Positions 4,535 through 46,284 of a stretch of DNA of 46,479 nt are shown piece by piece (position 1 is the first letter of the stretch; each line of letters starts with the position of its first letter). The position numbers were made by a program, and so were the translations under genes. Below the pieces are notes generated by a model. It saw only the letters and a program-made list of their open reading frames with translations. It was not told the origin of the DNA and did no database searches. The DNA lies in the NCBI RefSeq assembly GCF_003072065.1, contig NZ_QCYG01000013.1:1-46479 (forward strand). Reading direction: 5' to 3'. Source of the DNA: Thalassorhabdomicrobium marinisediminis. GTDB lineage: Bacteria; Pseudomonadota; Alphaproteobacteria; Rhodobacterales; Rhodobacteraceae.

Positions 4535-5001
4535 TTCTGCACCGCCTGCGTGTCATAAAGCGGAATCGTTGAGATCGACATCTTGGCCGACCCTTGGCTG
4601 AGCTCGTTCGCGTGGCTCAGATAGATCAGCACCTGATTGTCCTCGTCCAGAATGCGCGTCAGCCGCAGGGATTTGAACACGATCGACCGCCCCTCTCGGA
4701 ACACCGTTTCCCCGTCGTCCGAACGATCGATGTCGCCGATGACGATCGGTCCGGTCTGACGGCAATCAATCGAGGCGTTCGACGGGTCCTCGAACCAGTT
4801 GCCGTTTGACAGCCGGTCGATCAGGCTGCGCTCGAAATAGGCGATGTGACAGGTGACGCCCTGCACATCCGGATCGTCGATGGCCTCAACGATGATATCG
4901 TTCCCGACCCAGTCCACGCCGACGCGCCCCACTTCTTCCGCCGCGGCCGAGGTGACGAGGAGCGTAGCGCAAAGGGAGATGAGGGACTTGATCGGGGACA
5001 T
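4531..5001 (-). CDS. creA: CreA family periplasmic protein
   Basis: A 156-residue protein with a signal peptide followed by the CreA signature (EEVGRVGVDWVGNDI, then DPDVQGVTCHIAYFERS, then DPSNASIDCRQTGPI, then RSIVFKSLRLTRILDE). Two cysteines are likely disulfide-bonded in the periplasm. The family is widespread in proteobacteria and its biochemical role is unknown. The ATG at 5001 was chosen because GGGGAGAA-like purines are absent further upstream and it places the signal peptide at the N-terminus; a longer open frame extends to 5088. It is divergent from the diguanylate cyclase and convergent with the MORN gene. Confidence 0.85.
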   Translation of the reverse strand: MSPIKSLISLCATLLVTSAAAEEVGRVGVDWVGNDIIVEAIDDPDVQGVTCHIAYFERSLIDRLSNGNWFEDPSNASIDCRQTGPIVIGDIDRSDDGETVFREGRSIVFKSLRLTRILDEDNQVLIYLSHANELSQGSAKMSISTIPLYDTQAVQN

Positions 5002-5173
5002 GGTGCGGCCTTTTGTGATGTGTGCCTGACCCAACGCACAAAGCCGCCGGCCCGTTCCCCGATCTGCATAGTAGTCGCACCAAACCACCGCCCGCCCCCC
5101 TCTGCCCCCGCGCTTACCACTTTTTCAGGTTTTTCTTGCAGAACACCCCGACGCAGCAGACGGGGGAACGGAC

Positions 5174-5929: not shown

Positions 5930-6079
5930 ACCGGCAGCGCAGGCGCGATCCGACTCCCGCGTATCGCGGATTTGTTCCCGCTTGCTGCAAAAATATCCGC
6001 CGGAACCAATCCGCCTTTTCGGTGTTTTCACAGTGAAGCAGGGCACAACAGCCTTGCCAAACGAATGAAGGAGAATGCC

Positions 6080-22842: not shown

Positions 22843-22917
22843 TGGGATGTAGCCAAGTGGTAAGGCAACTGTTTTTGGTACAGTGTACCGTAGGTTCGAA
22901 TCCTACCATCCCAGCCA
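22843..22917 (+). tRNA. tRNA-Gln (anticodon UUG) with encoded CCA
   Basis: A complete cloverleaf: acceptor TGGGATG/CATCCCA, D arm GCC/GGC, anticodon stem ACTGT/ACAGT with loop TTTTGGT giving anticodon TTG, T arm GTAGG/CCTAC with loop TTCGAAT, discriminator G and an encoded CCA. The 3' half is the integration target of the element to its right, and the gene is intact after integration. Confidence 0.95.
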
Positions 22918-22920
22918 ACT
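22901..22920 (+). repeat. attL core, 3' end of tRNA-Gln
   Basis: TCCTACCATCCCAGCCAACT is found here and again, perfectly, at 44001-44020. Here it forms the 3' side of the T loop, the T and acceptor stems and CCA of the tRNA. The flanks differ at both sides, so the shared core is exactly 20 bp. Confidence 0.85.
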
Positions 22921-23027: not shown

Positions 23028-23093
23028 AAAGCCGCCCGAGGCGCCTTGGGATCAAATTTTCCCTCCTGAACAGTGACCAGAATCGAGGTCACT

Positions 23094-25097
23094 ATGGACA
23101 GATTTTTTTACCTTACCAGACGGCGAGAAACGTGGTTTTACCGCCGTCGCCTCCCCGGTTTGTCCACAGAAAAACGCCCGGTGATGCTGTCCTTAGGGAC
23201 GACAGATCGCAAATTGGCCCTTAAATCCTGTGCAAAGCTCACCGCGCACATGGACCAAATGCTGGACAACGATCTTCATATGACACTGCCCGAAACGGAG
23301 GTAGCCGCCTTTTTCAAGGCCGAGCTACGCCGTGTCCTGCGCGACCTCAGGGTCGAACGCACGGTCGAGCATGTCGACGGGTCCATGACAGCATGCAAGG
23401 CCCGCCAGAATCATCTCAAAGCAGTTATTCTGTCCAGCATGGCCGAAGATGGTCTGTGCAAAGAGATGCCGCAGATGAGGCTGGCGCAAATTGATCCGTC
23501 CCTGCGCGATGAAGCACTGTCTTTGCACAGTGAAACCTATGCAACCTTCATGTCCGATCGGTTCAACGCGGATATTCAGCAACGCGCTACGGACATCCTG
23601 AAGCGTTCCGATTTTGCTCAATACGACAAGCTTTTCCTGCGCAAAGCCACTCTGGAAGCGCATATGGCCGCGCATGTAGCGCTGGGAGCCGTTCCCGTTC
23701 ACGCATGCGAGCAAGCCCGCACGGCAGCAATAGACCTTCTGTCGGGCCATCAAACACCCGAACGCTCCGAAGCGCCCGCACTGCCCCCGATACCACCCGA
23801 ACCTGTTGCAACTGCACCGACACAAAAGCCGTGCGTTACCGAAGGTGTTGATTTGATCCAGGATCGCTTCACGGCACAAACAATCCATGTCCAACGCGAA
23901 CAGGCCATGCAGCAGCCGGAGGAGCCCGAATTTGACGGCACAGCGCAGAATGTCGTGGTTGAGCGGACATATGGTGCTGATCTATTCGGCACGGCTGTCC
24001 GGATGATCCGAAGATCAAAGTCCCAAGAAGATACCTCCCTGCAAAAACTGAAATCCGTAAGCCTTTTCCTCTACCTCACGGGGGTGCAGATGGTCACGGA
24101 TGTGCGCCAGCATCATATCGATATGTTCGGGCATTCTTTGGAAAAGCAGCTTCCCAAACATTACTGGAAATCAGATGCGCAGAAGAACCTGACTTTTAGG
24201 GAACTGGTGGAAACTATCCAGAACAGGACGGACATCGCTGTGGGCCTGTCCCCTCCAACGATCGCACGGCATCTGACGACCATCGTTGGTATTATCAGAT
24301 TTGCCGCCAATGAGGGGAATACGCTGCCGTTTACGCCGCAAACGACCGATTTGATCCCCATCGACAAACGTTCAGACGCTCAAAAGCGGTCGGTGTTCGT
24401 TTTGGAAGACGTCCAACGGGTCTTTGCGCATCCACTTTGGCAGGGCTGCAAAAGCAAGGGACGACGGCATGAGGTGGGTAAGATTCTCATTAAGGATCAC
24501 CATTACTGGATCAACCTTCTGCTCGCCTATACAGGCGCGCGCCGTTCAGAAATTGCAGGGCTTCGCGAGAGCGATGTTGGGTATGACGATGATATCCCTT
24601 TCGTGCATATTCGCGAAAATACAGTGCGTGGCCTCAAGACGAGGTTCAGCCAACGGCGCGTCCCGCTCCATCCACACCTGATCGAGCTTGGATTCATGGA
24701 ATTCGTTAATGGAAGACGTTCATCTCACCAGTCATTCCTTTTCCCTGAAGCAATCCCCGCGAAAGTAAGAGAGATGTGCTTACAAGCGGATGGTCGCCCC
24801 CCGCCCTATGATAAGAAATTCGGAGACAGTCTCGATCACGTCTGGCGCCAATCCCTGCTTCGGAGCCTCGACGGAAATCCCGAAAAATATTGTGTAGCCA
24901 GTCTGCGCAGTTACGTAAACGATACGCTTATCAATCTGCGCCAGGAAGATGGCAGCACCCTTGTCGTTCCCGGTATCGATCGGCGCGACCTCATGGGACA
25001 CAGGCCCTTGGATGTGAATGAAGGGACCTATCGCCGCGATGCGAAGCCTCTGGGACCGCTGTATGTGGCTATTAAGTTGCTCCCGAGGTTGTTCTAG
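23094..25097 (+). CDS. tyrosine recombinase (integrase) of the element
   Basis: A 667-residue phage-type integrase expected to catalyse integration into tRNA-Gln. The N-terminal RFFYLTRRRETWFYRRRLP segment resembles the DUF6538-type N-terminus common in alphaproteobacterial integrases. A long central region and SAM-like core-binding segment follow. In the catalytic domain the first arginine is in GARRSE (about residue 481), the beta-hairpin lysine in GLKTRFSQRRVPLH, box II in SLRSYV...LMGH, and the nucleophile tyrosine in GTYRRD (about 645). The ATG at 23094 has GAGG seven bases upstream; a GTG at 23073 is possible. Its position beside attL fits the usual layout. Confidence 0.88.
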   Translation: MDRFFYLTRRRETWFYRRRLPGLSTEKRPVMLSLGTTDRKLALKSCAKLTAHMDQMLDNDLHMTLPETEVAAFFKAELRRVLRDLRVERTVEHVDGSMTACKARQNHLKAVILSSMAEDGLCKEMPQMRLAQIDPSLRDEALSLHSETYATFMSDRFNADIQQRATDILKRSDFAQYDKLFLRKATLEAHMAAHVALGAVPVHACEQARTAAIDLLSGHQTPERSEAPALPPIPPEPVATAPTQKPCVTEGVDLIQDRFTAQTIHVQREQAMQQPEEPEFDGTAQNVVVERTYGADLFGTAVRMIRRSKSQEDTSLQKLKSVSLFLYLTGVQMVTDVRQHHIDMFGHSLEKQLPKHYWKSDAQKNLTFRELVETIQNRTDIAVGLSPPTIARHLTTIVGIIRFAANEGNTLPFTPQTTDLIPIDKRSDAQKRSVFVLEDVQRVFAHPLWQGCKSKGRRHEVGKILIKDHHYWINLLLAYTGARRSEIAGLRESDVGYDDDIPFVHIRENTVRGLKTRFSQRRVPLHPHLIELGFMEFVNGRRSSHQSFLFPEAIPAKVREMCLQADGRPPPYDKKFGDSLDHVWRQSLLRSLDGNPEKYCVASLRSYVNDTLINLRQEDGSTLVVPGIDRRDLMGHRPLDVNEGTYRRDAKPLGPLYVAIKLLPRLF

Positions 25098-28041: not shown

Positions 28042-29558
28042 CTGATGTGCCACAGGTCACTAAGCCTGACGAATGGACCCCAGTTGCACCGGTCGTTCCA
28101 GATAGTTGGGCAGAGGCGTCATTCGATGAGGTTTTCAGCGTTATTTCAACCTCGGAAAAGAAAATTCCACAGAAGCTATATCTAAAAAAAGGTAAGTGGC
28201 CCGTAATTGACCAAGGTGCATCGTTTGTCGGTGGATATACGGATGATGAAAACACGATTATCTATGTGGATGAACCGCTCCTTGTTTTCGGAGACCATAC
28301 CCGCTGCTTTAAATTTGTGAGGAACGACTTTGCGCCCGGTGCGGATGGCATCAAAATACTGGCAGCCTCACCGCTTCTATTGCCAAAATTTTACTACTAT
28401 CTTTATTCGGCAATAAAGCTACCCAATCGCGGCTATTCCCGCCATTTTGGATTCCTAAAGCGTTGTATTTTCCCCATCGCCCCCCTCAATGAACAACGCC
28501 GCATCGTGGACAAGATCGAGGCGATGTTCGAGCGGATCGACAAGGGGGTCGAGAATTTGCAGGCGGCGCGGGCCGCACTTGGGCTTTACCGCCAATCCTT
28601 GCTCAAATCCGCATTTGAAGGCCGCCTGACCGCCGATTGGCGCGCGGCCAACGCGGATAAGTTGGAAGATCCCAAAACCCTCTTGGCCCGCATCCAAACC
28701 GAACGCGACGCCCGCTACAAGGCCGCGCTGGACGACTGGCAAACCGCCCTTGAGGCGTGGCGCAACGGCGGAGAAGAAGGCAAGAAACCTGCGAAGCCGA
28801 AACGGCCACGCGACATCCCCGTATCAAGCATCAACTTGGGATTGAACGGCTGGGCGAAAATTCCGCTTGGCCTGATGATTGAGACCCCAAGCTATGGAAC
28901 CTCGAAGAAGTGCGACTACGATGGCGGCGCATATGGTGTGCTCAGGATTCCAAACATTGGCGCAGGTCGAATAGATGCAACCGACCTTAAGAAAGCTGAC
29001 TTTAACGACAACGAGGCAGAACAATACTCCCTTATTGAAGGTGATATCCTTACGGTTCGTTCCAACGGGAGCCTGTCCATCGTTGGCAAACCAGCCTTAG
29101 TCACTGCGCAGGATACCGGAAACCTATTTGCGGGATACCTGATCCGGCTTAGAGCAATTTCTAACTCGCTTCGTCCGCAATACCTCGCCCACATAATGGC
29201 TGAGCCGCATATTCGCGGACAGATCGAAGCAAAGGCAAAATCTACAAGCGGGGTGAATAATATCAGCGCGAAGGAATTGCAGGACTTGAATATTCCCATC
29301 TGCTCCCCCGCCGAACAATCCGAAATCACCCGTATCCTCGACGAACGCCTCTCTGCTGCCGACACGATGGAGGCCGAGATCGACGCCGCGCTCACACGCG
29401 CCGACGCCCTGCGCCAATCCATCCTCAAACAAGCATTCAGCGGCAAGTTGGCCCCCCAAGACCCCGACGACGAACCCGCCGCCGCCCTGCTTGCCCGTAT
29501 CAAGGCCGAACGTGAGGCCGCACCAAAGCCGAAACGAAAAAAGCGAGGCGCTGCATGA
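28038..29558 (+). CDS. hsdS: type I restriction specificity subunit S (HsdS)
   Basis: A 506-residue DNA-recognition subunit with the standard layout: target-recognition domain 1 (about 20-150), central conserved coiled coil (NEQRRIVDKIEAMFERIDKG to LKSAFEGRLTADWR, about 153-200), target-recognition domain 2 (about 265-420), and a C-terminal coiled coil (AEQSEITRILDERLSAAD to ILKQAFSGKL). It sets which bipartite DNA sequence is methylated or restricted. The two recognition domains are coded by A/T-rich sequence while the coiled coils are G/C-rich, a sign of domain replacement. The ATG overlaps hsdR and the TGA overlaps the next gene. Confidence 0.93.
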   Translation: MTDVPQVTKPDEWTPVAPVVPDSWAEASFDEVFSVISTSEKKIPQKLYLKKGKWPVIDQGASFVGGYTDDENTIIYVDEPLLVFGDHTRCFKFVRNDFAPGADGIKILAASPLLLPKFYYYLYSAIKLPNRGYSRHFGFLKRCIFPIAPLNEQRRIVDKIEAMFERIDKGVENLQAARAALGLYRQSLLKSAFEGRLTADWRAANADKLEDPKTLLARIQTERDARYKAALDDWQTALEAWRNGGEEGKKPAKPKRPRDIPVSSINLGLNGWAKIPLGLMIETPSYGTSKKCDYDGGAYGVLRIPNIGAGRIDATDLKKADFNDNEAEQYSLIEGDILTVRSNGSLSIVGKPALVTAQDTGNLFAGYLIRLRAISNSLRPQYLAHIMAEPHIRGQIEAKAKSTSGVNNISAKELQDLNIPICSPAEQSEITRILDERLSAADTMEAEIDAALTRADALRQSILKQAFSGKLAPQDPDDEPAAALLARIKAEREAAPKPKRKKRGAA

Positions 29559-30013
29559 ATAATTTCCAGCGTGAAGGCGCAATCAGCAACACGCAAGTTG
29601 GCCGTGACTTTGAATTGCGGGCACAAAAGATTCTAGCGGGACACGGGCTGGAGTTGAATCTCAACCACAAAGTTCCTTGCGGGTTGGGAAACCTCAAAAA
29701 GAACCATGCCTTTGACCTCGGGTCAGACAACCCTCGCATCATTGTCGAATGTAAAACACAGACATGGACATCAGGTGGCAATATCCCCAGTGCAAAGATG
29801 AAAAACTGGGCCGAAGCCATGTTCTATTTCCACATGGCACCGCCAGACTACCGCAAGATTTTCTTTGCCGAGCGCAGCCATCGCATGGGCTATAAAGAAA
29901 GCCTTTTAAGTTATTTCCGCCGCACACAAGCTCACATGATCCCATACGACGTGGAGTTCTGGGAACTTGATCGCGACAGTGACGCACTTGTTAGACCTGA
30001 GGACCAAATATGA
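29555..30013 (+). CDS. small PD-(D/E)XK nuclease-like protein within the type I operon
   Basis: A 152-residue protein with a candidate restriction-endonuclease-like core: E20 in an opening helix (VGRDFELRAQKIL), D54 (NHAFDLGSD) and E65-C-K67 (RIIVECKTQTW), spaced as in PD-(D/E)XK enzymes. It has no other recognisable domain. The start overlaps the hsdS stop by ATGA, and its stop overlaps the next gene the same way, so it is translated as part of the hsd operon. It may add a nuclease activity or bind DNA ends. The family is not one I can name. No hsd operon requires such a protein. Confidence 0.7.
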   Translation: MNNFQREGAISNTQVGRDFELRAQKILAGHGLELNLNHKVPCGLGNLKKNHAFDLGSDNPRIIVECKTQTWTSGGNIPSAKMKNWAEAMFYFHMAPPDYRKIFFAERSHRMGYKESLLSYFRRTQAHMIPYDVEFWELDRDSDALVRPEDQI

Positions 30014-31860
30014 GCACTTTTGACAGCACCAAACTCCCCCTGCCGCAGGTTTTGGCCGACATTACCAAAGGGATTATCCAGCTACCCGATTTCCAACGCG
30101 GCTGGGTCTGGGATGATGAGCATGTGAAGTCCCTCTTGATCAGCATCGCGCGGTCGTTCCCAGTGGGTGCAGTGATGATGCTCGACACAGGTGGAGAAGT
30201 CCGGTTTCAGGTGCGCCCGATCGAGAATGTCACGTTTAAGGACAAGGTGCCGGAACCCGAGCGGCTGATCCTCGACGGCCAGCAACGCCTGACATCGCTC
30301 ACTCAGGTGTTGGCGCTGAATAAACCCGTGCAGACCTTTGATGCCAAGGGCAAGAAGATCGACCGATACTACTATATCGACATTGCCACGGCATTGGAGG
30401 ACGGCGGGTTGGAAGATGCATTTATCTCGGTGCCTGCCGACAAGAAACTGAAGACTAATTTCGACCGCGATGTTGTGCTGGACCTGTCATCCACCGAGTT
30501 GGAGGTGACAAACTTTCATTTCCCATGCTCGGAAATTCTCAGTTCGGATGCTTGGGAGGAAGCATTGCACGAACACGCCCCTGAGAAATTCAGCGACTTT
30601 ATGGCATTCCGAAAGAAGGTCCTTACCGCGTTTCGTAGCTATCAACTGCCCGCTATCACCCTAGGCAAGGCCACGTCTAAGGAGGCAGTCTGCCTGGTAT
30701 TTGAAAAAGTAAATACAGGCGGTGTGCCACTATCCGTGTTCGAATTGGTGACCGCTACTTTTGCCGCCGACGGCTTCAATCTGCGCGATGATTGGTATGG
30801 AAGCAAGTTGCGAGGCTTTGAGGGCCGCGCGACGCGTCTTAGTAAGGAACCGATGCTGAAAGGGTTTGCGGCGGCGGATTTCCTGCAAGTGATCTCGATT
30901 TTGAAAAGCTCGGGCATGCGGAAAGCCGATATCGCGGCTGGCAAAAAGGGCAAGGCCGTTTCTGCCGTCAGCGCAAAGCGTGCAACCGTGCTCTCATTGA
31001 CCCTGGAAGACTATCAAAAGTGGGCGCCTGAGGTTGAAGAAGGCTTAATGCTGGTCGCAAAGTTCATGCGAAAACAGTGTTTCTTTAACGCACGCGAACT
31101 ACCTTATCGCACTCAGCTGATCCCATTGGCCGCAGTTCTATCGCAAATCAAAGAACGCTGGTTGGAGCCGCGCATTTATGACCGCCTGTCCCGTTGGTTT
31201 TGGTGTGGTGTCCTTGGCGAACTTTACGGCGGCGCAGTGGAGACCCGTATTGCAAACGATTATGAAGAGTTAATGCCATGGCTCACCAGCGACCTTGATG
31301 ACGAAAATTTCGAATTAACCTATCAGTTCCCCCGCACCATTTCTGAGGCAGCTTTTCAGGAAAGCCGTCTGGACACGCTGCGCTCCCGAAACAGCGCCGC
31401 CTACAAAGGTCTGAATGTGCTTGTGATACGGCAAGGTGCGCGCGATTTCTTTTGGAAAGCGACTATCCAAGAACTCGATAAAGAAGAGCTGGGCCTCGAC
31501 ATCCATCACATATTCCCGCGAGCGTGGTGTGAGGATCAGGGAATTAAGGAAAGCGTTTACAACTCCATCGTGAACAAGACACCCATTGCTTACAAGGCCA
31601 ACAGGATGATCGGGCGTAAGGCACCGTCTGTCTACCTCGCCGACCTACAAAAGCACAAACAGGTCAACCTATCAGACGAGGAGATGAACGAAATCCTCAC
31701 CAGCCACTACATTCCGGAAGCCGAACTGCGGGCGAACGATTTTGAACAATTTTACAGTGGCCGTAAAAGCAAGCTGATCCAGATTGTTGAAAGTGCAATG
31801 GGCAAGTCGGCACAGCTCGACCAGTCTGGCGTGGCCTATAAGACCGAGGTAGAAGCATGA
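30010..31860 (+). CDS. DUF262/HNH (GmrSD- or SspE-like) nuclease within the type I operon
   Basis: A 616-residue protein. The N-terminal DUF262 (ParB/Srx-like, GmrS-type) domain shows LPDFQRGWVWD (25-36), PVGAVMMLD and the nucleotide-binding DGQQRLTSL motif at 89-97. The C-terminal region has an HNH-type nuclease motif LDIHHIFPRAW (about 495-505) followed by SIVNKTPIAYKANRMIG, as in DUF1524. Proteins with this layout act as type IV modification-dependent nucleases (GmrSD) or as the SspE effector of phosphorothioate defence. Here it sits between hsdS and hsdM, joined to both neighbours by ATGA overlaps. What modification it senses, if any, cannot be told. Confidence 0.82.
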   Translation: MSTFDSTKLPLPQVLADITKGIIQLPDFQRGWVWDDEHVKSLLISIARSFPVGAVMMLDTGGEVRFQVRPIENVTFKDKVPEPERLILDGQQRLTSLTQVLALNKPVQTFDAKGKKIDRYYYIDIATALEDGGLEDAFISVPADKKLKTNFDRDVVLDLSSTELEVTNFHFPCSEILSSDAWEEALHEHAPEKFSDFMAFRKKVLTAFRSYQLPAITLGKATSKEAVCLVFEKVNTGGVPLSVFELVTATFAADGFNLRDDWYGSKLRGFEGRATRLSKEPMLKGFAAADFLQVISILKSSGMRKADIAAGKKGKAVSAVSAKRATVLSLTLEDYQKWAPEVEEGLMLVAKFMRKQCFFNARELPYRTQLIPLAAVLSQIKERWLEPRIYDRLSRWFWCGVLGELYGGAVETRIANDYEELMPWLTSDLDDENFELTYQFPRTISEAAFQESRLDTLRSRNSAAYKGLNVLVIRQGARDFFWKATIQELDKEELGLDIHHIFPRAWCEDQGIKESVYNSIVNKTPIAYKANRMIGRKAPSVYLADLQKHKQVNLSDEEMNEILTSHYIPEAELRANDFEQFYSGRKSKLIQIVESAMGKSAQLDQSGVAYKTEVEA

Positions 31861-33329: not shown

Positions 33330-33798
33330 TGGTTAAAATCCCCACTATTTTGTCGCGTCACCACCCAAACGCGTTCCGTTCAGTGCGTCTGGGTGGTGAT
33401 GTGTCGTTCGATATTTCTAACGCAGCCAGAAAAGAAAAACGGCCTCCAGCACCAAAACTTGGTAAAACATAAAAACGGGCCCCCTCCTTAGGTCCTTGCC
33501 GCAGATGTGCAAAAAAGCGGTTGCAGATAAACTTCATGGAAGAGCGTGGCAAACACGGTGCCTTCGCTATGGCGCAACAAAGTGGGCCCAGACCTTTATC
33601 CACAAAAAAGCGACATACCTGTCCAGAATAGACGATATTCACTGATGACAGAATGAACTGCGTCCTTAAGTCCAGAAAACGAGCGCGATCCGAGGTCATT
33701 CGGGAAGCCATACTCGGGCATAGCGGTGAGGTTATCACAGCTCGCCGGGTGGGCATCCTGAACATCTGACGATTGCCAGACCCTGAAGGACAAGCCGT
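33330..33798. other. non-coding interval between hsdM and mobC-like gene
   Basis: About 470 bases without a convincing gene. It holds a large inverted repeat near its left end (separate entry) and then A-rich sequence. A reverse-strand frame is open from 34110 to 33358 but overlaps the MobC-like gene and has no family resemblance. The position, directly upstream of mobilisation genes, is where an origin of transfer is expected. Confidence 0.5.
33358..33399. repeat. 15-bp inverted repeat, candidate oriT or terminator
   Basis: TCACCACCCAAACGC (33358-33372) and GCGTCTGGGTGGTGA (33385-33399) are inverted copies with one mismatch around a 12-base loop. It begins 28 bases after the hsdM stop. There is no T-run on either side, so an origin-of-transfer dyad is as likely as a terminator; the relaxase genes begin 400 bases downstream. 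Confidence 0.45.
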
Positions 33799-34107
33799 AT
33801 GCCAAAGAGAGAAACACCTTGGAAGATTTACCCGACAGCTGAACAGAAGGCTGCGATCACGGCGGGGCAGACGGCGGCGCGATATAGCACTCGATCCGCG
33901 TATATTATCGACTGCGTGCTGGAGGAGCCTTCTGCAGACCTTTCCAGAATTGCGGCACAAGTTGGCCGGCTGGGACTGCTCGCAAATGAAATCCTTGGGG
34001 AAGATGAAAGCTACAATCGCCGGTTGGCGGGACGTAGGGCCGATAAAGCGGTGCGGAAAATCATTGAGGCCTGTGACGCGATTACCGACAGACTTCGAGA
34101 GGAGTGA
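33799..34107 (+). CDS. MobC-like mobilisation accessory protein
   Basis: A 102-residue, charged, mostly helical protein beginning MPKRETPWKIYPTAEQKAAI. The AARYSTRSAYIIDCVL segment resembles the ribbon-helix-helix region of MobC/relaxosome accessory proteins, followed by RIAAQVGRLGLLANEIL. It would bind the origin of transfer and help strand opening for the relaxase. It ends one base before the relaxase ATG, whose GAGAGGAG ribosome site lies inside its end. The call is based on position and general resemblance. Confidence 0.65.
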   Translation: MPKRETPWKIYPTAEQKAAITAGQTAARYSTRSAYIIDCVLEEPSADLSRIAAQVGRLGLLANEILGEDESYNRRLAGRRADKAVRKIIEACDAITDRLREE

Positions 34108-34108: not shown

Positions 34109-35545
34109 ATGCGCCCGTATATTCAAATTCACAATGATCCAGATCGCCTCAATCGCTACATCAACAAGGACGGAGCCGAGCCGATCGGCGGCACGATCCC
34201 GAACCGGAGCAATCGCGATTTGTTCAAACGGTTTCGCGTTTTGGCCGCCGCCCAACCCGATGAACCCCAATTTCTGCACATGACATTATCGCTACCCGTC
34301 GGGATTAAGGCGGCAAAGAAGATCTGGAAACGGACGGTCGCAACGGCGATGAAGATGCTTGGGCTCGATCCAGAAATGACGCCTTGGTTCGCCAAACGCC
34401 ACACAGACGGGGCTTGCGATCACGTGCATACCGCGATCGTCCTTCGCGATTTCGCGGGGCGGCCTATCACATTCACAGGATCATCCGCGAAAAGCGAAGC
34501 CGCTCACAAACATCTGTGTTCGATGCTTGGCTTGCCCCCGCCGGCATATTTCGATCCGGATGCGTTACCCCGCCTGGAACCCATCACGCCAGGGCGCAGA
34601 CTAACCGAAGCAATCCCCGCCGCGTTGCACAAAGACCTGCAACAAGTCCTTCTTCGGAGGCAGCCCGAAACTCTGGCTGACTTGAACCAACATCTCGAGG
34701 AGCAAAATAGTGCGTTTCATGGAGAGGAAAAGGTCAACGCTTTTGGCACCCAAGCCTTTGCATTTTCCTCAACTGACGCACAGATGTTTAGCGGCGCACT
34801 TGGCCCAGCATGGCGACCCCGCGCTTTACGCGAGCGGCTCACCTTCTGCGGCACGCTTCGCAAACTACGAAACGCCCTCGATTGCGAAGCACTTATCGAC
34901 ATCTTCCAAACCCCAAAAATGGAGAGCCTCCTTGACCAAGCCATTAGATCAACACGCACCGCTCGACCTGCCGGAACCATCCAAAGTGATATTCGATCAA
35001 CTGCTGCAGACGCACAAGAAGGTGGAGGGGCTCTACCCCCTGATCGATCTGCTGACGAGGCCGGACGACCAGAGGGAAGCACTGGGCGAACGCTTGGCCA
35101 GCCTGCTGCGGGAGCTGATCGAAACACAGCAAACGTATCAGGCGCAGCACGCGGAAATGACCAAAGCGTTTACGGAGTTGAGTCGACAAACAGAAACACT
35201 GACCAACACCATGCAAGATCGGCTGGTCAGACAAGAGAAGAAGATGAGCCAATTGATGAAGATGCTGGGACATCCCATCGATTGACACTCGCGATGCTTT
35301 TGAGGCGCGTATGCGCTGCAGCAGCTGAACGAACACCCGGATGGAAATCAAAAATAGCACGCGACCACACCACAATTGTGGTGGTCTTTGATGATATGAG
35401 CGCTGTCAGAGTTTCGGCCTATGACGTGAAGGTCTTGAGGGGCGGCGCAGAGGCTCTCGCGTTTCAGGAGGATTATCTAAGGCATCTGCCAGAACACCCC
35501 CAAGAAAAAGATGCCGACGCAGATCATGATGACTTTGGGTTCTAA
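34109..35545 (+). CDS. mobilisation relaxase (HUH/MobA-VirD2-like)
   Basis: A 478-residue relaxase expected to nick the origin of transfer and stay covalently bound to the strand. The HUH metal site is H98-T-D...D-H105-V-H107, with HMTLSLP (57-63) as the preceding strand. The nucleophile is probably one of the N-terminal tyrosines (Y4 or Y17). Residues about 275-392 are low in complexity (Ser/Thr/Gly/Asp-rich) and correspond to a second gene in another frame. The C-terminus (TLAMLLRRVCAAAAERTPGWKSKI, then VVVFDDMSAVRVSAYD) is again conserved-looking. GAGAGGAG precedes the ATG; a longer in-frame extension to 33773 is a shadow of mobC. Confidence 0.82.
   Translation: MRPYIQIHNDPDRLNRYINKDGAEPIGGTIPNRSNRDLFKRFRVLAAAQPDEPQFLHMTLSLPVGIKAAKKIWKRTVATAMKMLGLDPEMTPWFAKRHTDGACDHVHTAIVLRDFAGRPITFTGSSAKSEAAHKHLCSMLGLPPPAYFDPDALPRLEPITPGRRLTEAIPAALHKDLQQVLLRRQPETLADLNQHLEEQNSAFHGEEKVNAFGTQAFAFSSTDAQMFSGALGPAWRPRALRERLTFCGTLRKLRNALDCEALIDIFQTPKMESLLDQAIRSTRTARPAGTIQSDIRSTAADAQEGGGALPPDRSADEAGRPEGSTGRTLGQPAAGADRNTANVSGAARGNDQSVYGVESTNRNTDQHHARSAGQTREEDEPIDEDAGTSHRLTLAMLLRRVCAAAAERTPGWKSKIARDHTTIVVVFDDMSAVRVSAYDVKVLRGGAEALAFQEDYLRHLPEHPQEKDADADHDDFGF
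34932..35285 (+). CDS. overprinted MobB-like protein inside the relaxase gene
   Basis: A 117-residue reading frame lies wholly inside the relaxase gene, shifted by one base. The product is LTKPLDQHAPLDLPEPS... ending QLMKMLGHPID, with a helical, leucine-rich middle (EALGERLASLLRELIETQQ) and a probable coiled coil at the end. Codons in this frame end mostly in G or C (for example CTG, GAC, CTC), as in true genes here, while the relaxase frame does not over the same span. The TTG start at 34932 has GGAGAG five bases upstream. Overlap of this kind is known for mobB within mobA of RSF1010. An ATG further upstream at 34710 would run through sequence that looks coding only in the relaxase frame. 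Confidence 0.65.
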   Translation: MTKPLDQHAPLDLPEPSKVIFDQLLQTHKKVEGLYPLIDLLTRPDDQREALGERLASLLRELIETQQTYQAQHAEMTKAFTELSRQTETLTNTMQDRLVRQEKKMSQLMKMLGHPID

Positions 35546-35729: not shown

Positions 35730-36593
35730 TCAGCCTTCTTCCCGATATCGTTTGGCAAACGAGAGAGCATTTAGTTCGAGCGGATAGGTGTTGATGTATT
35801 CTGCTGCTGAGAGCTCGTGCAATGTTGCAATTCTTAGCACCGGATCAGACGGAGAAAACGGCTCTGACCAAGAAATCTTGCTTGCCTGATCGTTCAACTC
35901 CTTCCTGATCACTTCAACATCTCTAACTTCCCGGTTCTCCGGCTCCTTGAGGATCGCCAATATTGTGATCGACACCCCTTCTGTATTTTCCCAAGCAGCA
36001 TGCGGAAAAACACGGAACTCCGATATCGAACGCAGGGATTTACCGAAATCGGACCCCTTGCCATACTTTTTGTTCACGGCAATCCTGAAGGTGTCCATGC
36101 ATGCGTTGAATTTATCCGGAAAGCCGAAGCGCCCATAGAAACGCTCAAGAGATCTTGCAAAATTTTGCAAGTCGAGCTCCCGGGGGCAACCTCGTTGCCT
36201 GGACCACTCCACAAGGAGATCTTTCTTAACACTCATGGCACGTGTGAAGTCGACTACAAGATTCTCAGGCGCACCGGCAAGCATTCCAAATCTTGGAACT
36301 TCGCCTTTCCCAACAGCGGAAAGATGTGCAGCTTTGAGCTCAACGAGAGGGCAAACGGTCACATAGGAAACGGTGGTCTTTTCAGGATCGCGGACAATAT
36401 CGCAGGTTTGCGAAATTACGCAGAGCCCTTGGTGCTCCTCCTCGACATCCGCCGAAAAAACGGCCCCCTCGTCCTCTGCATCAAAAGGTGGAGAGCAAAA
36501 AAGAAATTCATTACAGTCAGTCGTGAAATCGCCTTGCTGCCATTCAGCAAGGCGATCTGCAACGCTCAACTCCTCAGATGCCTCATCGAGCAA
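35730..36593 (-). CDS. unknown protein with SQTCD motif, third gene of TIGR04255/HTH operon
   Basis: A 287-residue soluble protein with no recognised domain. A conserved-looking motif VISQTCDIVR (59-68) follows an acidic N-terminal segment, and cysteines 27, 33, 58 and 64 are grouped near it. No membrane helices or signal peptide are seen. The start is TTG at 36593, supported by AAGGA eight bases upstream; that site overlaps the stop codon of the preceding gene. Gap to that gene is 12 bases. As the distal member of an operon with an HTH protein, it could be an effector or toxin, but this is only inferred. Confidence 0.6.
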   Translation of the reverse strand: MLDEASEELSVADRLAEWQQGDFTTDCNEFLFCSPPFDAEDEGAVFSADVEEEHQGLCVISQTCDIVRDPEKTTVSYVTVCPLVELKAAHLSAVGKGEVPRFGMLAGAPENLVVDFTRAMSVKKDLLVEWSRQRGCPRELDLQNFARSLERFYGRFGFPDKFNACMDTFRIAVNKKYGKGSDFGKSLRSISEFRVFPHAAWENTEGVSITILAILKEPENREVRDVEVIRKELNDQASKISWSEPFSPSDPVLRIATLHELSAAEYINTYPLELNALSFAKRYREEG

Positions 36594-36605
36594 CAGGATA
36601 TTCCT

Positions 36606-37328
36606 TTATACTTTGGCTCGGCGAATGCTCTTTCGTCGGGTCTTGGGACGCGCCATAAGCTCGACCTCAGATTCGTCGCTGAGATCTTCAGACGGAGAGT
36701 ATTCAAGCGGTGCGTTTTTTGCTCGCGCTTCCTCGGTGATGACGGCTCCAAAGGAAACACGGCCAATGCCTTCCCCTGCGCGATCTCTAATCGCTTGGAA
36801 TGCACCATCCTTCATGAGCTCGAAGAACGTTTTACCGTCAACTGCCTCACTCAGAAGCAGCCGCTTGTTCTCTTCCATCGTCCCTCGGTCGATGAAACGA
36901 AGCATGGCAACAACTGCGCCCAGTTTCTCATGATTTTCACCGGAAACAGGTTCCCCAGCTTTCCAATAATGTATAGCCCTTGGTTTGACATTGAAAACTT
37001 CAGAAACTTGCGCCCATGTAAGGCCACTGAGGCGCTTGAGCTCGACAGTCAATTCACTTGGAGACTCTACAATGGCCTCAATGGCACCTTCGTCGGCTGC
37101 CACAGAAATGCGAATGCCTTCAGACGATGTGCCTGAGCGGAGCTTCTGCCATTTGAGCAGCTGAATTGCATCTTCTGTCGAAATCGAAACTCTCGTTTTT
37201 TCAAGAAACGGAGCAGCTATTCCCGGTTGATTTTCATGGGGGATCACTTCCGAAAAATTTGGATGACCTATCGCACCAACCGGCAGACATAACGCCATAG
37301 CAGTGATAGTAGAACCTTGTATTCCCAT
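36606..37328 (-). CDS. HTH protein, middle gene of TIGR04255 operon
   Basis: A 240-residue protein with a central helix-turn-helix (about 93-130, LTWAQVSEVFNVKPRAIHYWKAG) followed by a segment (GKTFFELMKDGAFQAIRD) that loosely recalls the toxin-binding end of Xre/MbcA-type antitoxins. The C-terminal 30 residues are basic (PKTRRKSIRRAK) and could bind nucleic acid. The ATG has GGGGGGAA upstream. It starts 2 bases after the TIGR04255-like stop. It could be the operon's own repressor or an antitoxin; the sequence does not settle which. Confidence 0.65.
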   Translation of the reverse strand: MGIQGSTITAMALCLPVGAIGHPNFSEVIPHENQPGIAAPFLEKTRVSISTEDAIQLLKWQKLRSGTSSEGIRISVAADEGAIEAIVESPSELTVELKRLSGLTWAQVSEVFNVKPRAIHYWKAGEPVSGENHEKLGAVVAMLRFIDRGTMEENKRLLLSEAVDGKTFFELMKDGAFQAIRDRAGEGIGRVSFGAVITEEARAKNAPLEYSPSEDLSDESEVELMARPKTRRKSIRRAKV

Positions 37329-37330
37329 AA

Positions 37331-38143
37331 CTATTCCCCCCTAAAGCGATTCATAAATTCTTCGGTAATACTCCACCGAAAAAAAGCGTAAGCCCTTGCT
37401 GCAACTTTGTCGAGCTCTGTGCAAAGCGAATCGGGCTCCAGTAGAGTTGAAGCACAGTCGGCGCTGAAGGAGTCAACGTCTAACACCCAGCTTGCTTCAT
37501 CCACAGGAGGCGCCACCTCAGGATCATGACTAAAGCCTTTCGGGGCTAAGCCATAGCGTGCTATCAGTTTGCCTTCAGCGGTCTTGCCGACAATTTCACT
37601 CATCGAAATCTCTATGTGCTGAGCCAAATTTGGCTGAAGCACATTGAGAAGTTCGGATCTGATGAGGGTTGAGAGCTCGCCGAGAAAATCCTCCCCGACA
37701 AGTCGGTCCACATACCGAAAACCGACGCGCTCAACCAGTGGCGGCGAGATGCTGGTGGTTAAGGCCGCCAAGATGACGTGCATTCTTTCAAGGAAATCTT
37801 CTCTTGAAATATACTTGGCGGTTTCCAGCGCTATGAAGTCCGTGGCCAGAGATATCTGTATAACCTTTTCAGGATCAAGAAATCTCCACACCGTTGATTC
37901 GACCGCCTGATGTTGAATTTCTTTACCAGAGACACGCAACTCTACAGATTGAACCGTGTCAGCCCGGACATGAGGATATTGGGAACGCAAGGCCTCTTGG
38001 AAATCAGCGATGTAGCTTTCATTACTGATTTTGGAGATCTTGGAGAACCTGACCTGGGCGAGGACGCGAACCAAAGGAGCATCTGCCAACGGCACGCTTG
38101 CAGGGACCTCGCCAAAAAGTGGGTCATCGGCTGGCTGTGACAT
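37331..38143 (-). CDS. TIGR04255 family protein
   Basis: A 270-residue protein beginning MSQPADDPLFGEVPASVPLADAPLVRVLAQVRF, the usual opening of the sporadically distributed TIGR04255 family, followed by VSGKEIQHQAVESTVWRFLD, REDFLERMHVILAAL and ERVGFRYVDRL. The family has no known biochemical role. Its patchy distribution on mobile elements fits a defence or stress function. The ATG at 38143 has GGGGAG upstream and was preferred over longer in-frame starts (to 38314). First gene of a three-gene reverse-strand operon. Confidence 0.75.
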   Translation of the reverse strand: MSQPADDPLFGEVPASVPLADAPLVRVLAQVRFSKISKISNESYIADFQEALRSQYPHVRADTVQSVELRVSGKEIQHQAVESTVWRFLDPEKVIQISLATDFIALETAKYISREDFLERMHVILAALTTSISPPLVERVGFRYVDRLVGEDFLGELSTLIRSELLNVLQPNLAQHIEISMSEIVGKTAEGKLIARYGLAPKGFSHDPEVAPPVDEASWVLDVDSFSADCASTLLEPDSLCTELDKVAARAYAFFRWSITEEFMNRFRGE

Positions 38144-39004
38144 GTCTCTCCCCATCGGTTTTTCGGTGCCTTTACAGTGTATGAAGTAGAGTGTGAAGTA
38201 AAATTTTTTAGTAGGGAACTGTGAATATTGTCCTACCCCTTCGTTTGGGGACACGCCGCCACAGCTCTCGCAGCCGGCATGATCACAGTCTAAATCGGAT
38301 GTATGCTCGTTCACGTCCGTCTCTGTAGAATCACTCTTGACGGCTGCTGGGGTGCTGACCAGTCAAACGTAGTCAACGCATAAGCGCTTGAGTTCGAACT
38401 GACCCAGATATTGTTCCCGTGCCGAATGTCCGGAAAGCGGACTGCAACCGCAGAAAATCGAAACCGTGTCGAGTGACGGCTCCGGGCCGTTCTCGACGAT
38501 CAGAGGATGGGACATCTACTATGCATGCGTCTTACCGGCAGGTCAGTTTTGCGTCCCCCCTGCCTTGATTTAGTGAGGCGATGCGCACCTATTAATGAAC
38601 GAAAATCATCGGCATCCGCGTTACAGCACCGTCGACTGCGAAGATACCATACAGAAAAATGCAGAATAGAATTTCATTTCGGACCCTCCAATCAGCTCGA
38701 AAAGAATAACGAAACTATTTCATCACTTCACTCACATTAGAATACCACCAAACAGAGGTATCGTATTTGCGTCAGAGTCGCGGTCGTGCGAACTGCGGGC
38801 AGTCCACAGCCAAATCCGTGCTTCGGGGCGTCGGGGCGTCGAAACTCCAAACCACGCGAGCCCGCCAAGATTACATCTGGCCGGGCGGTTGTCACGTATT
38901 TTCAAGGCTCTGCCCGAAAGGTGGCGGCGCTTTGTGCGTGCGCAAAGTTTCGAACGCCCTGCTTTTTACGCCGGGTTGCCTCTCAAATCCACGGAGGGGC
39001 AGAC
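38144..39004. other. 860-bp interval without a recognised gene
   Basis: Lies between the reverse-strand TIGR04255 operon and the forward LuxR-type gene, so it must hold both promoters. Short open frames on the + strand (38507-38740, 38786-39004) have no recognisable product or ribosome site. Base composition changes from A/T-rich (38640-38770) to G/C-rich (38815-38890), as if assembled from different sources. The short tandem GGGGCGTC occurs twice at 38824-38839. No RNA gene was recognised. Confidence 0.4.
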
Positions 39005-41396: not shown

Positions 41397-41430
41397 TCAC
41401 ATATGCATATTTTATATGGAGGGCTTTATC

Positions 41431-43506
41431 ATGCCCCATCTCACCAAAAAAACGCCCACTTGGGCAGCATTCGCCGACACTCTGATTGAACGCCTTCGCC
41501 GCCACCACGGCCTTGCTCCAGCGCGCTTTCTGAACGACGAAGACGAAGAGCCATCCGAGCTGGATATTCTTTTTCAAAAACTCGAAGGCCCTGTTCCAGC
41601 AACGCAATTCACCGAGCGCGCAGATATTCCATCACGGTATCTGCCCGCTCGACAGCTTTTGACTGGCATCAGGTTGGCAGCGGCCTTTGGTTCGCAAGAT
41701 CAAGAGCAGGAAAGCGCGCAATGTGGTGCCATTACCATCATCCGTGACATTGCTATCGAGGACCTGCAACTGATCAAAGACACTCTGAAAAGTGCCTTCC
41801 CAACCCGATGGCTTATCATTGAGCCGGACGTGGCAGAGGTTGCGTTTGCGAAGAATGCACAGTCGCGCTTCGATCGTCTTCTTGTCGATTGCGTCGATAA
41901 GATTGAGCCGGTTCTTATTCTCCAACCAGACGGCATAACACTGCCCTTTCATCTGAAAGCCATTGCTCCAACAACTCTGGCTTTCTCAAACGTCACGCAT
42001 GATGTGCTCTTGAAGTTTCTTGAGTGCGGGCATCTCTCTGACCAGCTTGCTGGCGCTGGCAATGTCCGAGCAGCACTACCGACTGAAACAGCCATGAAGG
42101 CTCTCGGCACCGTTGATGTCTGCGCGGCCACGCGTGCCCCCGCGCTGCATCAAGCCGTGGAACGCCTGCGCAGGATGACGCATCGTGATGCCAAAGGGAA
42201 CGGTCCCCGCCTTGAAGACATGACGGGTGACAACATTGCACTGACTGCAGCGCGGCGCATCGTGGCCGATCTGCTCGATTGGCAGGCCGGGAAAGCCGCT
42301 TGGCATGAGCTGAGCCATTCTTTGCTGCTGTATGGTGCGCCCGGCACCGGCAAAACATGGTTGGCCCGCGCGATGGGCAATAGTGCGGGGCTTACCGTAG
42401 TGACCGGCAGCTTCGGCGAATGGCAAGCAGCGGGCCATCTTGGGGATATGCTGCGCGAAATGCGCGCGACTTTCGCCAAAGCGCGCCGCAATGCGCCGTG
42501 CATCCTCGTGATTGACGAGATCGACGCGGTCGGGTCGCGGACAGATGACGATCGCCATGCCTCCCACTATCGCATTCAAGTGATCACGGCTTTTCTCGCA
42601 GAGATGGATCAGATCGCGCAGCGAGAAGGTGTTGTTGTCGTTGGCACCTGCAACCATGTCGACCGCATGGATCCCGCTGTGCTGCGTTCAGGGCGTATGG
42701 ATGTTAAGATCGAGGTCCCCTTGCCGGATGCTGAAGCACTGTATGCGATCCTCTCCCACGACTTAAGCAAAGACATTGCCGACCACGAGCTTCAGAAGCT
42801 CGCCCATCGTGCCGTGGGCCACAGCGCGGCTGACATTGACGCTGCAATTCGTGCTGCCCGCTCCAACGCGCGGCACGAAAGGAAGCTGTTGCATGTCGCA
42901 ATGCTGGAAGAACAATTGAAAATTGGCTCCGCCAAAGAGAACCCCAACCGCACATGGCGAATTGCGGTTCATGAAGCAGGGCATGCTGTCATCGGCAAAG
43001 CTCTGGACTTGGGGCCCATTGACCGCATCATGATCACAGGTGACGGCGGCCAAATCCATCGCCGCGCGCAATCAAGCGAAAGCCGCCTCTGCGATATCGA
43101 GGATGAAATCGTCTATTCCTTGGGCGGACGGGCAGCTGAACGGCTCATGCTCGGCGAAGTATCAGCCGGCGCGGGCGGGCCCGCAACATCGGATCTGGCC
43201 CTTGCGACCCGCCATGCCGTGGACATCGAGGCAGCATACGGCCTCGGCCATGAAGGGCCGGTCTGGCACGCAAACCCCGATGCACTTCACCTCGCGACAC
43301 CAGCGATCCGTGACCGTGTCCGCCAGCGCATTATGAAGGCGGAAAAACGCGCCGGAGAAATCCTGCGGCAGCATCAACAGGTCTTGGAAGCACTCGCCAG
43401 TGAGCTTGTCGAGAAGAGATCGTTGCGCAGCTCTGAAATTGCGCAGCTTCTTCAGCACGTTACTGAGAACACTTCCACTACGACGCCTGAAAATGCACCG
43501 CCATGA
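41431..43506 (+). CDS. FtsH-like AAA+ zinc metalloprotease without membrane anchor
   Basis: A 691-residue protein. An N-terminal region of about 240 residues has no recognised domain and no membrane helix, unlike true FtsH. The AAA+ module follows with Walker A GAPGTGKT (about 302-309), Walker B LVIDEIDAVGSR and the second region of homology TCNHVDRMDPAVLRSGRMD with its arginines. The peptidase M41 domain has the zinc site HEAGH (about 514-518), LGGRAAERL and the third ligand in GPATSDLALATRH. The FtsH pore motif (FVG) is replaced by a WQAAG-like segment. All catalytic residues appear intact, so it should unfold and degrade soluble substrates. GGAGGG precedes the ATG at 41431. Confidence 0.85.
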   Translation: MPHLTKKTPTWAAFADTLIERLRRHHGLAPARFLNDEDEEPSELDILFQKLEGPVPATQFTERADIPSRYLPARQLLTGIRLAAAFGSQDQEQESAQCGAITIIRDIAIEDLQLIKDTLKSAFPTRWLIIEPDVAEVAFAKNAQSRFDRLLVDCVDKIEPVLILQPDGITLPFHLKAIAPTTLAFSNVTHDVLLKFLECGHLSDQLAGAGNVRAALPTETAMKALGTVDVCAATRAPALHQAVERLRRMTHRDAKGNGPRLEDMTGDNIALTAARRIVADLLDWQAGKAAWHELSHSLLLYGAPGTGKTWLARAMGNSAGLTVVTGSFGEWQAAGHLGDMLREMRATFAKARRNAPCILVIDEIDAVGSRTDDDRHASHYRIQVITAFLAEMDQIAQREGVVVVGTCNHVDRMDPAVLRSGRMDVKIEVPLPDAEALYAILSHDLSKDIADHELQKLAHRAVGHSAADIDAAIRAARSNARHERKLLHVAMLEEQLKIGSAKENPNRTWRIAVHEAGHAVIGKALDLGPIDRIMITGDGGQIHRRAQSSESRLCDIEDEIVYSLGGRAAERLMLGEVSAGAGGPATSDLALATRHAVDIEAAYGLGHEGPVWHANPDALHLATPAIRDRVRQRIMKAEKRAGEILRQHQQVLEALASELVEKRSLRSSEIAQLLQHVTENTSTTTPENAPP

Positions 43507-44000: not shown

Positions 44001-44020
44001 TCCTACCATCCCAGCCAACT
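44001..44020 (+). repeat. attR core (also start of the next element)
   Basis: TCCTACCATCCCAGCCAACT, a perfect copy of the 3' end of tRNA-Gln at 22901-22920, 21,100 bases to the right. Here it is not part of a tRNA: the upstream bases do not form the rest of the cloverleaf. The second integrase begins 42 bases later. Confidence 0.85.
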
Positions 44021-44061: not shown

Positions 44062-46284
44062 TTGTCGCGCCATGTGTCACAGTCCGAGAGAACTGTAACA
44101 CACGCTGTGACACAGGGCGCGCCCCGGCCGCGATACCAGCCCAAGCGAAAGCGCCCCTACTCCGCCGGGCCATACCTGATGCGCCGGGGCCGCATTTTCT
44201 ACTTTCGCAAACGGCTCCCACTCATCGGATCAAACCGGCACTCAAACCTTTTTCTATGTCTTTCACTTGGAACCGACCTCCCGTTCGACGCCGTGATGCG
44301 CGCAGCCGCGCTGCTCACGGTCTACGAGCAAGAGGAAGAATATATCGTGGACGCCCTAACTACTGGCACGCTGAGTGCCGAAGACATCAAAGTCATCCTG
44401 TCTGAGAAGTTGCGCACTCAACTCAAGCGCATTCAGGATTTGCCTGTTGCCACCCAGGGTCAAACAGAAGATCAATTAGACGCGCGGATTGAAGCACTTG
44501 AGGCAGAAAACAAGTCCTTGCGTCGAGCGGCACGTCAAGCAAATTGGACGAGCGTCCAAGACTCGCTCTACGCCGCAGCAAAGCAGGTTGGTCTCGATGT
44601 TCCGGACGAAATCGACGCAGACTTCGGACGCCAAGCTCTTTCTTTGAAGAAGCGTATCAACGAAATCGAAATAGACGTCTTGGACGGCGACGACGTCCGA
44701 CATGCTGCTCGCCCATTGCTCGAAGAGTATAGAGCAGCGGATTTCGACAGCTTTGTCACCAACCCAGTAACTGCAGATGCCGCCTTTGCGATGGTTGACG
44801 AGTTGCACCCATCCAATGGGATGAAACGGATCAACAAGACTCTAAAAGGTGTCTACACCGAATTCTTCGGAAATGTGCCCCCGCAGACGATCAACTTGGC
44901 TCGGCAAGAAGAGTTCTTCGAGTGGCTCTCTCGGTTCCCAAGATCGAATGGGCGGTCCCACGGCCGGAATGCCTGGACGAACAGAAAAGAAGCAAACGGC
45001 GAGGGGCCCCAAGGAACTGATATTTCAAAAACGGAAGAAATATCGGCCGCAGATGCTCACGACCACATTGTCACAGAACAGATACGGGATTTGCAGGACA
45101 TTTCTTCAGCTGAGAAGCGAGCCCGGCTCGCTGAACTCTTGACGCCACGACTTACATTGAAGACGCTCGAGAAATACAGAGATAGCCTCAACCGTCTCTT
45201 CAAAGCGACAAGGGCGCTTGGTGGGGACGCACCCGTTGCCGTATCCTATAAGAAGTTGGAAAATATAATAAAAAAGCAGAAATCTGAAGACGAATTGTCT
45301 ATCCGGGTTACCAAGCCGAAGACAAGGCTTCCATGGAGCAAAGAGCGGCTCGCCGCGTTCCTGACCAGCCCGTTGTTCACGGGCAGCGCTTCCATCCACC
45401 GCCGTTGGCAAAATGGGCAAGTCGTGACGCGGGATGCGACATACTGGGTTCCACTTTTGGTCCTCACTCTCGGGTCTCGCATCAAAGAGATTTTGCACCT
45501 CAAGAAATTTGACGTGAGGGTCCGAGACGGTGAACTCTGCCTTGCACTCAATTGGGGTCCGGAAGATTCTGGTAAGACTGAAAGTGCGCGGCGCATTCTG
45601 CCAGTGCCCCAACTGTTGTTGCAACTTGGTTTCGCAGAATGGTTCCGGAACCTTCCAGAAGATCAAATGATGCTTTTTCCCGAGGCTCTGGCGCGCAGTG
45701 AAAGCGGTGATGTGGTCAGCGCTTTCGGCAAGCATCTGCGCAGAATTCTTGATCACCTTGGCCTGGCCGATTTCGATGAGGATTTCTATGCCTCCCGCAA
45801 AACCCTTTCGAGCATGCTTGACAAAGCGGGGGTCTCCGAAGGTCGTCGGCAGGCCATCGCCGGCCACTCGCAAGGCACTATCCTTAACTGTCATTACACC
45901 GCACACAACGTCGAGCAGCTCAAGTCGGCTCTCGATGAGGCTGATTTCAAACTTGAGATCAGCCACAATCCGAAGCTTGGATTCCCTGTCATCCGCAAAT
46001 GCCACCTGGCCGGTCAAACCATGTTGGACTTAGAAGTGACATTGAGCGAAGACCACAAGGTAGAAAAACTTGTCGTTCGTGATTCAAAGGCCGATGAATC
46101 GATGCTGGAGTATGACACTATGACTGAAAGCAGTGCGGCTGACCGTCAAAAAGCAGCTCAAGACCTGACTGAACTTGCGAAGAGCTACTCGCTCCGAATG
46201 CCGAGTAACTCTGAGCGACGCAAAGCCGTAGAACATCTTATGGCCTACGCAGATATGGCTAATTCCGCCTCACAGTCTGCATGA
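44062..46284 (+). CDS. second tyrosine recombinase (integrase)
   Basis: A protein of up to 740 residues, longer than and only distantly similar to the first integrase. RGRIFYFRKRLPLIG near residues 40-55 is the counterpart of the first integrase's N-terminus. A coiled-coil central region follows. In the catalytic domain the first arginine lies in LGSRIKEILHL (about 472), the next elements in ASRKTLSSMLDKAGV and IAGHSQG, and the tyrosine in NCHYTAHN (about 611). A C-terminal extension of about 120 residues follows the tyrosine, which is unusual. The start is uncertain: TTG at 44062 has AAGG upstream, while an ATG at 44179 would drop an N-terminal stretch coded by repeat sequence. Confidence 0.8.
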   Translation: MSRHVSQSERTVTHAVTQGAPRPRYQPKRKRPYSAGPYLMRRGRIFYFRKRLPLIGSNRHSNLFLCLSLGTDLPFDAVMRAAALLTVYEQEEEYIVDALTTGTLSAEDIKVILSEKLRTQLKRIQDLPVATQGQTEDQLDARIEALEAENKSLRRAARQANWTSVQDSLYAAAKQVGLDVPDEIDADFGRQALSLKKRINEIEIDVLDGDDVRHAARPLLEEYRAADFDSFVTNPVTADAAFAMVDELHPSNGMKRINKTLKGVYTEFFGNVPPQTINLARQEEFFEWLSRFPRSNGRSHGRNAWTNRKEANGEGPQGTDISKTEEISAADAHDHIVTEQIRDLQDISSAEKRARLAELLTPRLTLKTLEKYRDSLNRLFKATRALGGDAPVAVSYKKLENIIKKQKSEDELSIRVTKPKTRLPWSKERLAAFLTSPLFTGSASIHRRWQNGQVVTRDATYWVPLLVLTLGSRIKEILHLKKFDVRVRDGELCLALNWGPEDSGKTESARRILPVPQLLLQLGFAEWFRNLPEDQMMLFPEALARSESGDVVSAFGKHLRRILDHLGLADFDEDFYASRKTLSSMLDKAGVSEGRRQAIAGHSQGTILNCHYTAHNVEQLKSALDEADFKLEISHNPKLGFPVIRKCHLAGQTMLDLEVTLSEDHKVEKLVVRDSKADESMLEYDTMTESSAADRQKAAQDLTELAKSYSLRMPSNSERRKAVEHLMAYADMANSASQSA
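44073..44116. repeat. inverted and direct repeats at the start of the second integrase
   Basis: TGTGTCACAG (44073-44082) and CTGTGACACA (44105-44114) form a perfect 10-bp inverted repeat. CTGTAACACACG (44093-44104) and CTGTGACACAGG (44105-44116) form adjacent 12-bp direct repeats. These resemble in form the arm-type repeats of the first element and may bind the second integrase. Confidence 0.45.

Follow-up and report, generated by a model that had tools for sequence, protein, structure and literature searches.

A conserved gene nested in the +1 frame of a relaxase gene on a putative integrative mobilizable element of Thalassorhabdomicrobium marinisediminis

The stretch of DNA analysed here, referred to as the window, comprises 46,479 nucleotides of contig NZ_QCYG01000013.1 of Thalassorhabdomicrobium marinisediminis (Rhodobacteraceae). 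Two 20-base copies of a tRNA-Gln 3' end, at 22901-22920 and 44001-44020, form the left and right ends of an element and bound 21.1 kb of DNA containing mob genes, an integrase-like gene and a type I restriction-modification set whose parts flank the gene for a GmrSD_N protein. The integrase-like gene adjoins the left repeat (23073-25097, plus strand); its product matches DUF6538 (E 2.6e-6) and is a recombinase as judged by eye, with no Phage_integrase match at 1e-3. No type IV secretion-system domains were found in the 13 element proteins scanned, the small ORFs lying outside the scan. Judged by its repeats and gene content, the interval 22901-44020 is laid out like an integrative mobilizable element, which would depend on a borrowed helper.

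Several further genes accompany this arrangement. Between hsdS and hsdM, at 29555-31860, lie the genes for a family-less protein of 152 amino acids and a GmrSD_N protein of 616 amino acids, so that the type I locus looks as if a defence module had been inserted into it or added to it. An FtsH-like protein with AAA and M41 peptidase parts is encoded at 41416-43506, and its ATPase part also matches the PADLOC IetA models. Downstream of the mob operon, three genes on the minus strand (35730-38314) matched neither Pfam at 1e-3 nor PADLOC and possibly represent unknown cargo. Just beyond the right repeat, a second integrase-like gene (44062-46284; Phage_integrase E 2.5e-4, below the cut-off) is placed as if a second element stood in tandem at the same tRNA.

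The mob genes begin with a mobC-like gene of 102 amino acids (33799-34107, plus strand; NikA-like PF21983 at E 0.0023, below the curated cut-off), which ends one base before the relaxase gene. It is preceded by a block at 33458-33798 that, by visual reading of the alignment, is almost identical in the related locus L004; the DNA ahead of the block has no such near-identity. We regard this block as a candidate origin-of-transfer region. The sequence ATCCTG, a motif of MOBP nic sites, occurs at the same place before mobC only in the window and L004, and for this reason no nic site is claimed.

The relaxase gene itself (34109-35545, plus strand) encodes 478 amino acids and matches Pfam PF03432 with E 7.8e-6 and 26.6 bits, above the cut-off of 24.6. 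In an alignment of 11 sequences, Y17, H105 and H107 are invariant, and H57 and H98 nearly so. Domain, catalytic tyrosine and histidine triad together identify the predicted product as a MOBP-like HUH relaxase, its placement in MOBP over MOBQ being provisional. A Foldseek search with the relaxase model returned nothing at E 0.001; lipoate ligases headed the list and the NES relaxase stood fifth (probability 0.95, E 0.044). A PDB sequence search with the relaxase gave two ribosomal entries and nothing else.

Wholly within the relaxase gene, on the same strand and in its +1 frame, a second gene of 117 codons plus stop extends from a TTG start at 34932 to 35285, with the ribosome site GGAGAG ahead of the start at 34921-34926 (plus strand). 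Both the frame, offset by one base, and its ribosome site had been noticed in a preliminary description of this DNA and are confirmed here. The G+C content at codon positions 1, 2 and 3 of the inner frame (0.62, 0.32 and 0.69) follows the usual coding pattern; the third-position preference, earlier called strong, is clear but only moderate. The length of the inner frame lies by itself within chance: in 500 codon shuffles of the window relaxase the +1 frame was at least as long in 36%, and in 45% of synonymous reshufflings the region stayed open, as it did in 6% of the shuffles confined to the overlap codons. The case for regarding the frame as a real gene rests on comparison with relatives.

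Relatives of the relaxase are few. A scan of species genomes returned two, L004 (87% identity) and L005 (44%), and among 53 records of a plasmid collection two held full-length relatives (L002 and L003, both from Rhodobacterales), the other 51 matching over less than half. Searches of 394 genomes of the window's own family matched the relaxase nine times with a single sequence and, with a profile, ten times; both counts include the window's genome. The relaxase was present in 1 of 385 genomes sampled from the class and in 1 of 19 from the genus, each time in its own genome only. The relaxase is thus rare and, within the material searched, nearly confined to its own family. The viral collection held no relative among 45 candidate stretches. 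When the inner protein was searched against the plasmids by tblastn, nothing was recovered at E 0.01, though two plasmids bear diverged relatives.

The detailed comparison comprised 13 relaxase loci including the window. L011 was excluded, as its relaxase ends short of the overlap, at residue 144; L012, cut by a contig end after 82 inner codons, was dropped from the left-one-out test only; and L022, a relaxase fragment with one stop that covers model positions 158-302, was not counted. A homologous +1 frame is present at the same place in all 12 loci that reach the overlap, window included, and none contains an internal stop codon (L012 up to its contig end), a search for such stops having been proposed beforehand as a check. 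The window, L004 and L005 share a TTG start codon for the inner frame, which begins with ATG in the remaining nine; as read by eye from a listing, GGAG lies immediately 5' of the start in 9 of the 12 and is lacking in L007, L013 and L014. The common core of the inner proteins reads KVxxLxPLLDLL...LGExL. With E-values from 8.5e-21 to 2.4e-8, left-one-out profiles, from which the near twin was also removed, recovered the inner protein in all 11 loci. The same overlap DNA read in the relaxase frame scored E 17 or worse, or was unscored, in 11 of 11. As a control, the +1 frame of the 5' part of the relaxase reached E 0.0012 once; its ten other cases either scored 0.085 or worse or went unscored.

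Two profile matches stand apart from this set. One (L031, genome G151, E 1.4e-4) was judged a chance match, being an ORF that lies upstream of a recombinase at a site where no relaxase is present. The other (L042 6750-7363, genome G311) is an inner-like frame of 142 codons with E 1.2e-7 beside an integrase-like gene; its relaxase frame left at most a weak trace (E 0.0034) in a local search and no match at E 1 genome-wide.

Selection changes frame at the borders of the overlap. As the Nei-Gojobori omega of one frame is biased in overlapping frames by the other, only its contrast along the gene was used. Between the window and L004, relaxase omega rises from 0.19 ahead of the overlap to 1.44 inside it and falls to 0.42 beyond it, with 0.23 for the inner frame. 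Differences at relaxase codon positions 1, 2 and 3 number 20/20/57 ahead of the overlap and 12/11/6 inside it (Fisher p 5.5e-4). The pair L009-L010 gives 0.21, 2.97 and 0.22 for the relaxase and 0.26 for the inner frame (Fisher p 5.5e-12), and the window with L005 gives 0.16 before and 1.64 within, with 0.34 for the inner frame (Fisher p 1.9e-5). When outer substitutions were placed randomly without inner constraint, inner changes were as few as observed in 0.25% of 2000 simulations for window-L004 and in 0 of 1000 runs for L009-L010. The omega shift, the profiles and the simulation thus bear out the original proposal of a second gene inside the relaxase gene, with selection acting mainly on the inner frame. 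Whether the relaxase frame might instead be the better conserved over 34932-35285 had been set as a further check; by profiles and omega it is the inner frame that is more conserved. Among pairs of a second, ColE1-type relaxase, several of which share sequences, two of five had no significant shift (L037-L038, p 0.085; L034-L035, p 1.0), and relaxase omega in the overlap of L034-L035 is 0.65.

Structurally, the inner protein is modelled by AlphaFold2 as two helices, residues 16-41 and 48-111, at a mean pLDDT of 80, in keeping with the helical product foreseen from the sequence. The highest 19-residue hydropathy is 0.28 in the window protein and at most 1.01 in 11 members of the family, which therefore have no membrane helix. 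A Foldseek search with the inner model found no PDB match at E 0.001 or better. Of the 41 sequences that a PDB sequence search with the inner family returned at E up to 1, most were designed bundles or coiled coils, and the best (3.5e-5) was a designed protein. The relaxase model is of middling quality (mean pLDDT 66). Its residues 264-391 (34898-35281) fall below pLDDT 50 and separate folded parts on either side, including, past the overlap, a small C-terminal part of about residues 394-462 (35288-35494). The nested gene covers residues 275-393, a nearly exact match to this modelled disordered linker. The low complexity that had been ascribed to the relaxase frame in this stretch is evident by eye and corresponds to disorder in the model. 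If the model is right, the placement of the overlap on a disordered linker would explain how both genes coexist.

Small genes nested in relaxase genes are already known. In RSF1010, mobB lies within mobA/repB in a different frame, and its product is reported to be essential for mobilisation (PMC2200642). In pSNC3-Kan, MobB and MobD are both encoded inside mobA, and the published coordinates place mobB and mobD in the +1 frame (PMC9282650). Among the papers listed, the nearest case in the order concerns two Paracoccus MOBP5 plasmids, in which mobA, mobB and mobC are described as three ORFs that overlap (PMC3832669). As judged by titles and abstract openings among the records listed, no published nested gene was found in the relaxase group of the window. 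The window gene resembles mobB of RSF1010/R1162 (IncQ) in encoding a small protein nested in a relaxase gene in another frame, a likeness of arrangement. The transport signals of R1162 are said to require MobB. The same plan recurs in pGNB2, whose MOBP relaxase is a remote relative of the window's: a +1 frame of about 228 codons (L045 3183-3866) in its relaxase-primase gene is absent from the gene table and looks like an unlisted MobB. Its protein of about 228 amino acids has a clear hydrophobic stretch by eye, in contrast to the window protein with its 117 amino acids and low hydropathy.

A membrane helix is a defining trait of MobB. The ColE1-type genes mbeB/mobB and mbeD/mobD are nested in mbeA/mobA, in the +1 frame in L039 and L040 as in the window; ColE1-type plasmids carry two nested genes, whereas the window has one. 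Unlike the window protein, MbeB spans the membrane with a helix (hydropathy 2.39 in L040), and none of the 11 members matched a MobB or MbeB model of Pfam or NCBIfam at E 0.01. An identity with MobB/MbeB is ruled out on these two grounds. The suggestion that the gene encodes a MobB-like protein accordingly holds for its position; it fails for the missing membrane helix, and the sole mob-protein model matched is that of MbeD, weakly and by one member in 11. MbeD is small, helical and without a membrane helix, like the window protein, which is that one member, with 17.5 bits and E 0.0038 against model NF033829; the curated cut-off is 60 bits, and membership in the MbeD family is rejected, since the score falls short of it. 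In a profile-profile comparison of the inner family with MbeD, the probability was 42% and the score 26.4, the maximum of 100 heptad shuffles being 25.8. For single MbeD proteins, 0, 133, 35, 55, 3 and 8 of 200 heptad shuffles reached the observed score. With one match among 11 members and single proteins mostly within their shuffles, kinship to MbeD is not established. The relaxases differ as well, the window relaxase carrying a three-histidine motif and that of ColE1, according to a review, an HEN motif.

Closer similarity is found among the nested proteins of Rhodobacterales ColE1-type relaxases, which are likewise encoded in the +1 frame. The window-family profile recognised those of L034 (Paracoccus yeei, E 1.1e-5) and L033 (genome G039, E 9e-5), each outscoring every one of its 200 heptad shuffles; L033 was also recovered by the family profile in a genome search (E 8.6e-4), and the nested protein of L035 scored E 0.018. 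The Sulfitobacter nested proteins of L036, L037, L038 and L041 were not recognised (E 0.99 to 15). In the reverse direction, a profile of the second type recognised only part of the window family, with 0, 0, 53, 41, 6, 149, 171, 1, 0, 0 and 15 of 200 shuffles reaching the score of the respective members. The hosts of L033 and L034 belong to a different relaxase clade, and L034 and L035 have another nested frame ahead of the one compared. Taken together, the window family likely has kin in the nested frames of these relaxases, as far as profile similarity can indicate. What is new at the locus is not the arrangement; it is an unnamed protein family without a membrane helix, in its particular host relaxase group.

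Gene tables treat the two frames unevenly. The table of plasmid L002 lists the inner frame (4794-5114) and not the relaxase; in that of L003 the inner frame (4851-5270) appears together with a C-terminal relaxase piece (5294-5944), the whole relaxase again being unlisted. These entries do not bear out the expectation that routine annotation would call the relaxase only. Both plasmids are typed as non-mobilizable. Among six plasmids with ColE1-type relaxases, nested frames are listed without the whole relaxase in L034, L035 and L037, and the reverse holds in L036, L038 and L041. The gene table describes itself as incomplete, so little weight attaches to a missing entry. The ColE1-type relaxase genes of L034 (2501-4456) and L035 (2501-4681, Sulfitobacter faviae) each contain two nested +1 frames, which the tables list in place of the relaxase.

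We consider it likely that 34932-35285 is a real nested gene for a soluble, helical and probably oligomeric accessory protein that acts with the relaxase at the origin of transfer. It would be translated from its TTG start and own ribosome site on a mobC-mobA messenger, and the protein would steady the relaxosome or present the relaxase to a secretion channel borrowed from elsewhere. For the relaxase the overlap would be tolerable, since the overlapped DNA would encode only a disordered linker between the nuclease and the small C-terminal domain. A helper role in the relaxosome is suggested by the position of the gene, the mobC-mobA neighbourhood and the co-occurrence with the relaxase. We count in its favour that there are published nested mob genes on which mobilisation depends or with which it is linked. 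Counted against it are the lack of any mobilisation-family match at cut-off, the absence of an MbeB-like membrane helix, and the variable start and inconstant GGAG noted above.

The most likely reading is thus a relaxosome accessory of an integrative mobilizable element, and its main rival is exclusion. ColE1 MbeD is credited with exclusion (PMC2831885), and the nested gene could be an MbeD-like factor that hinders the entry of related elements and is no transfer helper. The window protein recalls MbeD by its size, its helical make-up and the absence of a membrane helix, and this reading can also draw on its weak NF033829 match and on a profile comparison slightly above its shuffles. With the MbeD model matched by a single member, however, and single MbeD proteins doing no better than many heptad shuffles, we find this reading improbable. 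Somewhat more improbable still is a real nested gene that mainly serves the relaxase as a folding partner or translational brake; nesting makes co-synthesis certain, and the inner frame accompanies the relaxase in all 11 loci with complete overlap, yet such wide conservation fits a relaxosome partner equally well. As for a frame open merely through base composition and the codon make-up of the linker, with no useful protein, it could draw on the shuffles and reshufflings given above. The inner protein, however, is conserved among relaxases 22-45% identical to the window's, which the relaxase frame over the overlap is not, and selection switches frame there in close pairs and simulation. On frame-wise selection, left-one-out profiles and simulation we reject a chance open frame, to which we assign a negligible probability.

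We raise tentatively, as a possibility we would not favour outright, that over the overlap the inner gene came first or dominates and the linker is its by-product. An ancestral nuclease gene would have read through a downstream helper gene, in a frame other than the helper's, into the small C-terminal domain, leaving the linker as unconstrained filler translated from helper DNA. That one helper family persists in the +1 frame of two relaxase clades would suggest that the nesting is ancestral and general in these mob operons, and that it was missed since annotation keeps one frame.

As a whole, the locus is a clear bacterial example of gene overlap: more than one pair of relatives shows selection passing from one frame to the other where the genes meet. 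It also adds an unnamed family to the nested transfer proteins. Furthermore, as gene tables tend to keep one frame and the plasmids L002 and L003 are typed as non-mobilizable, the mobile elements of the order may be under-counted.
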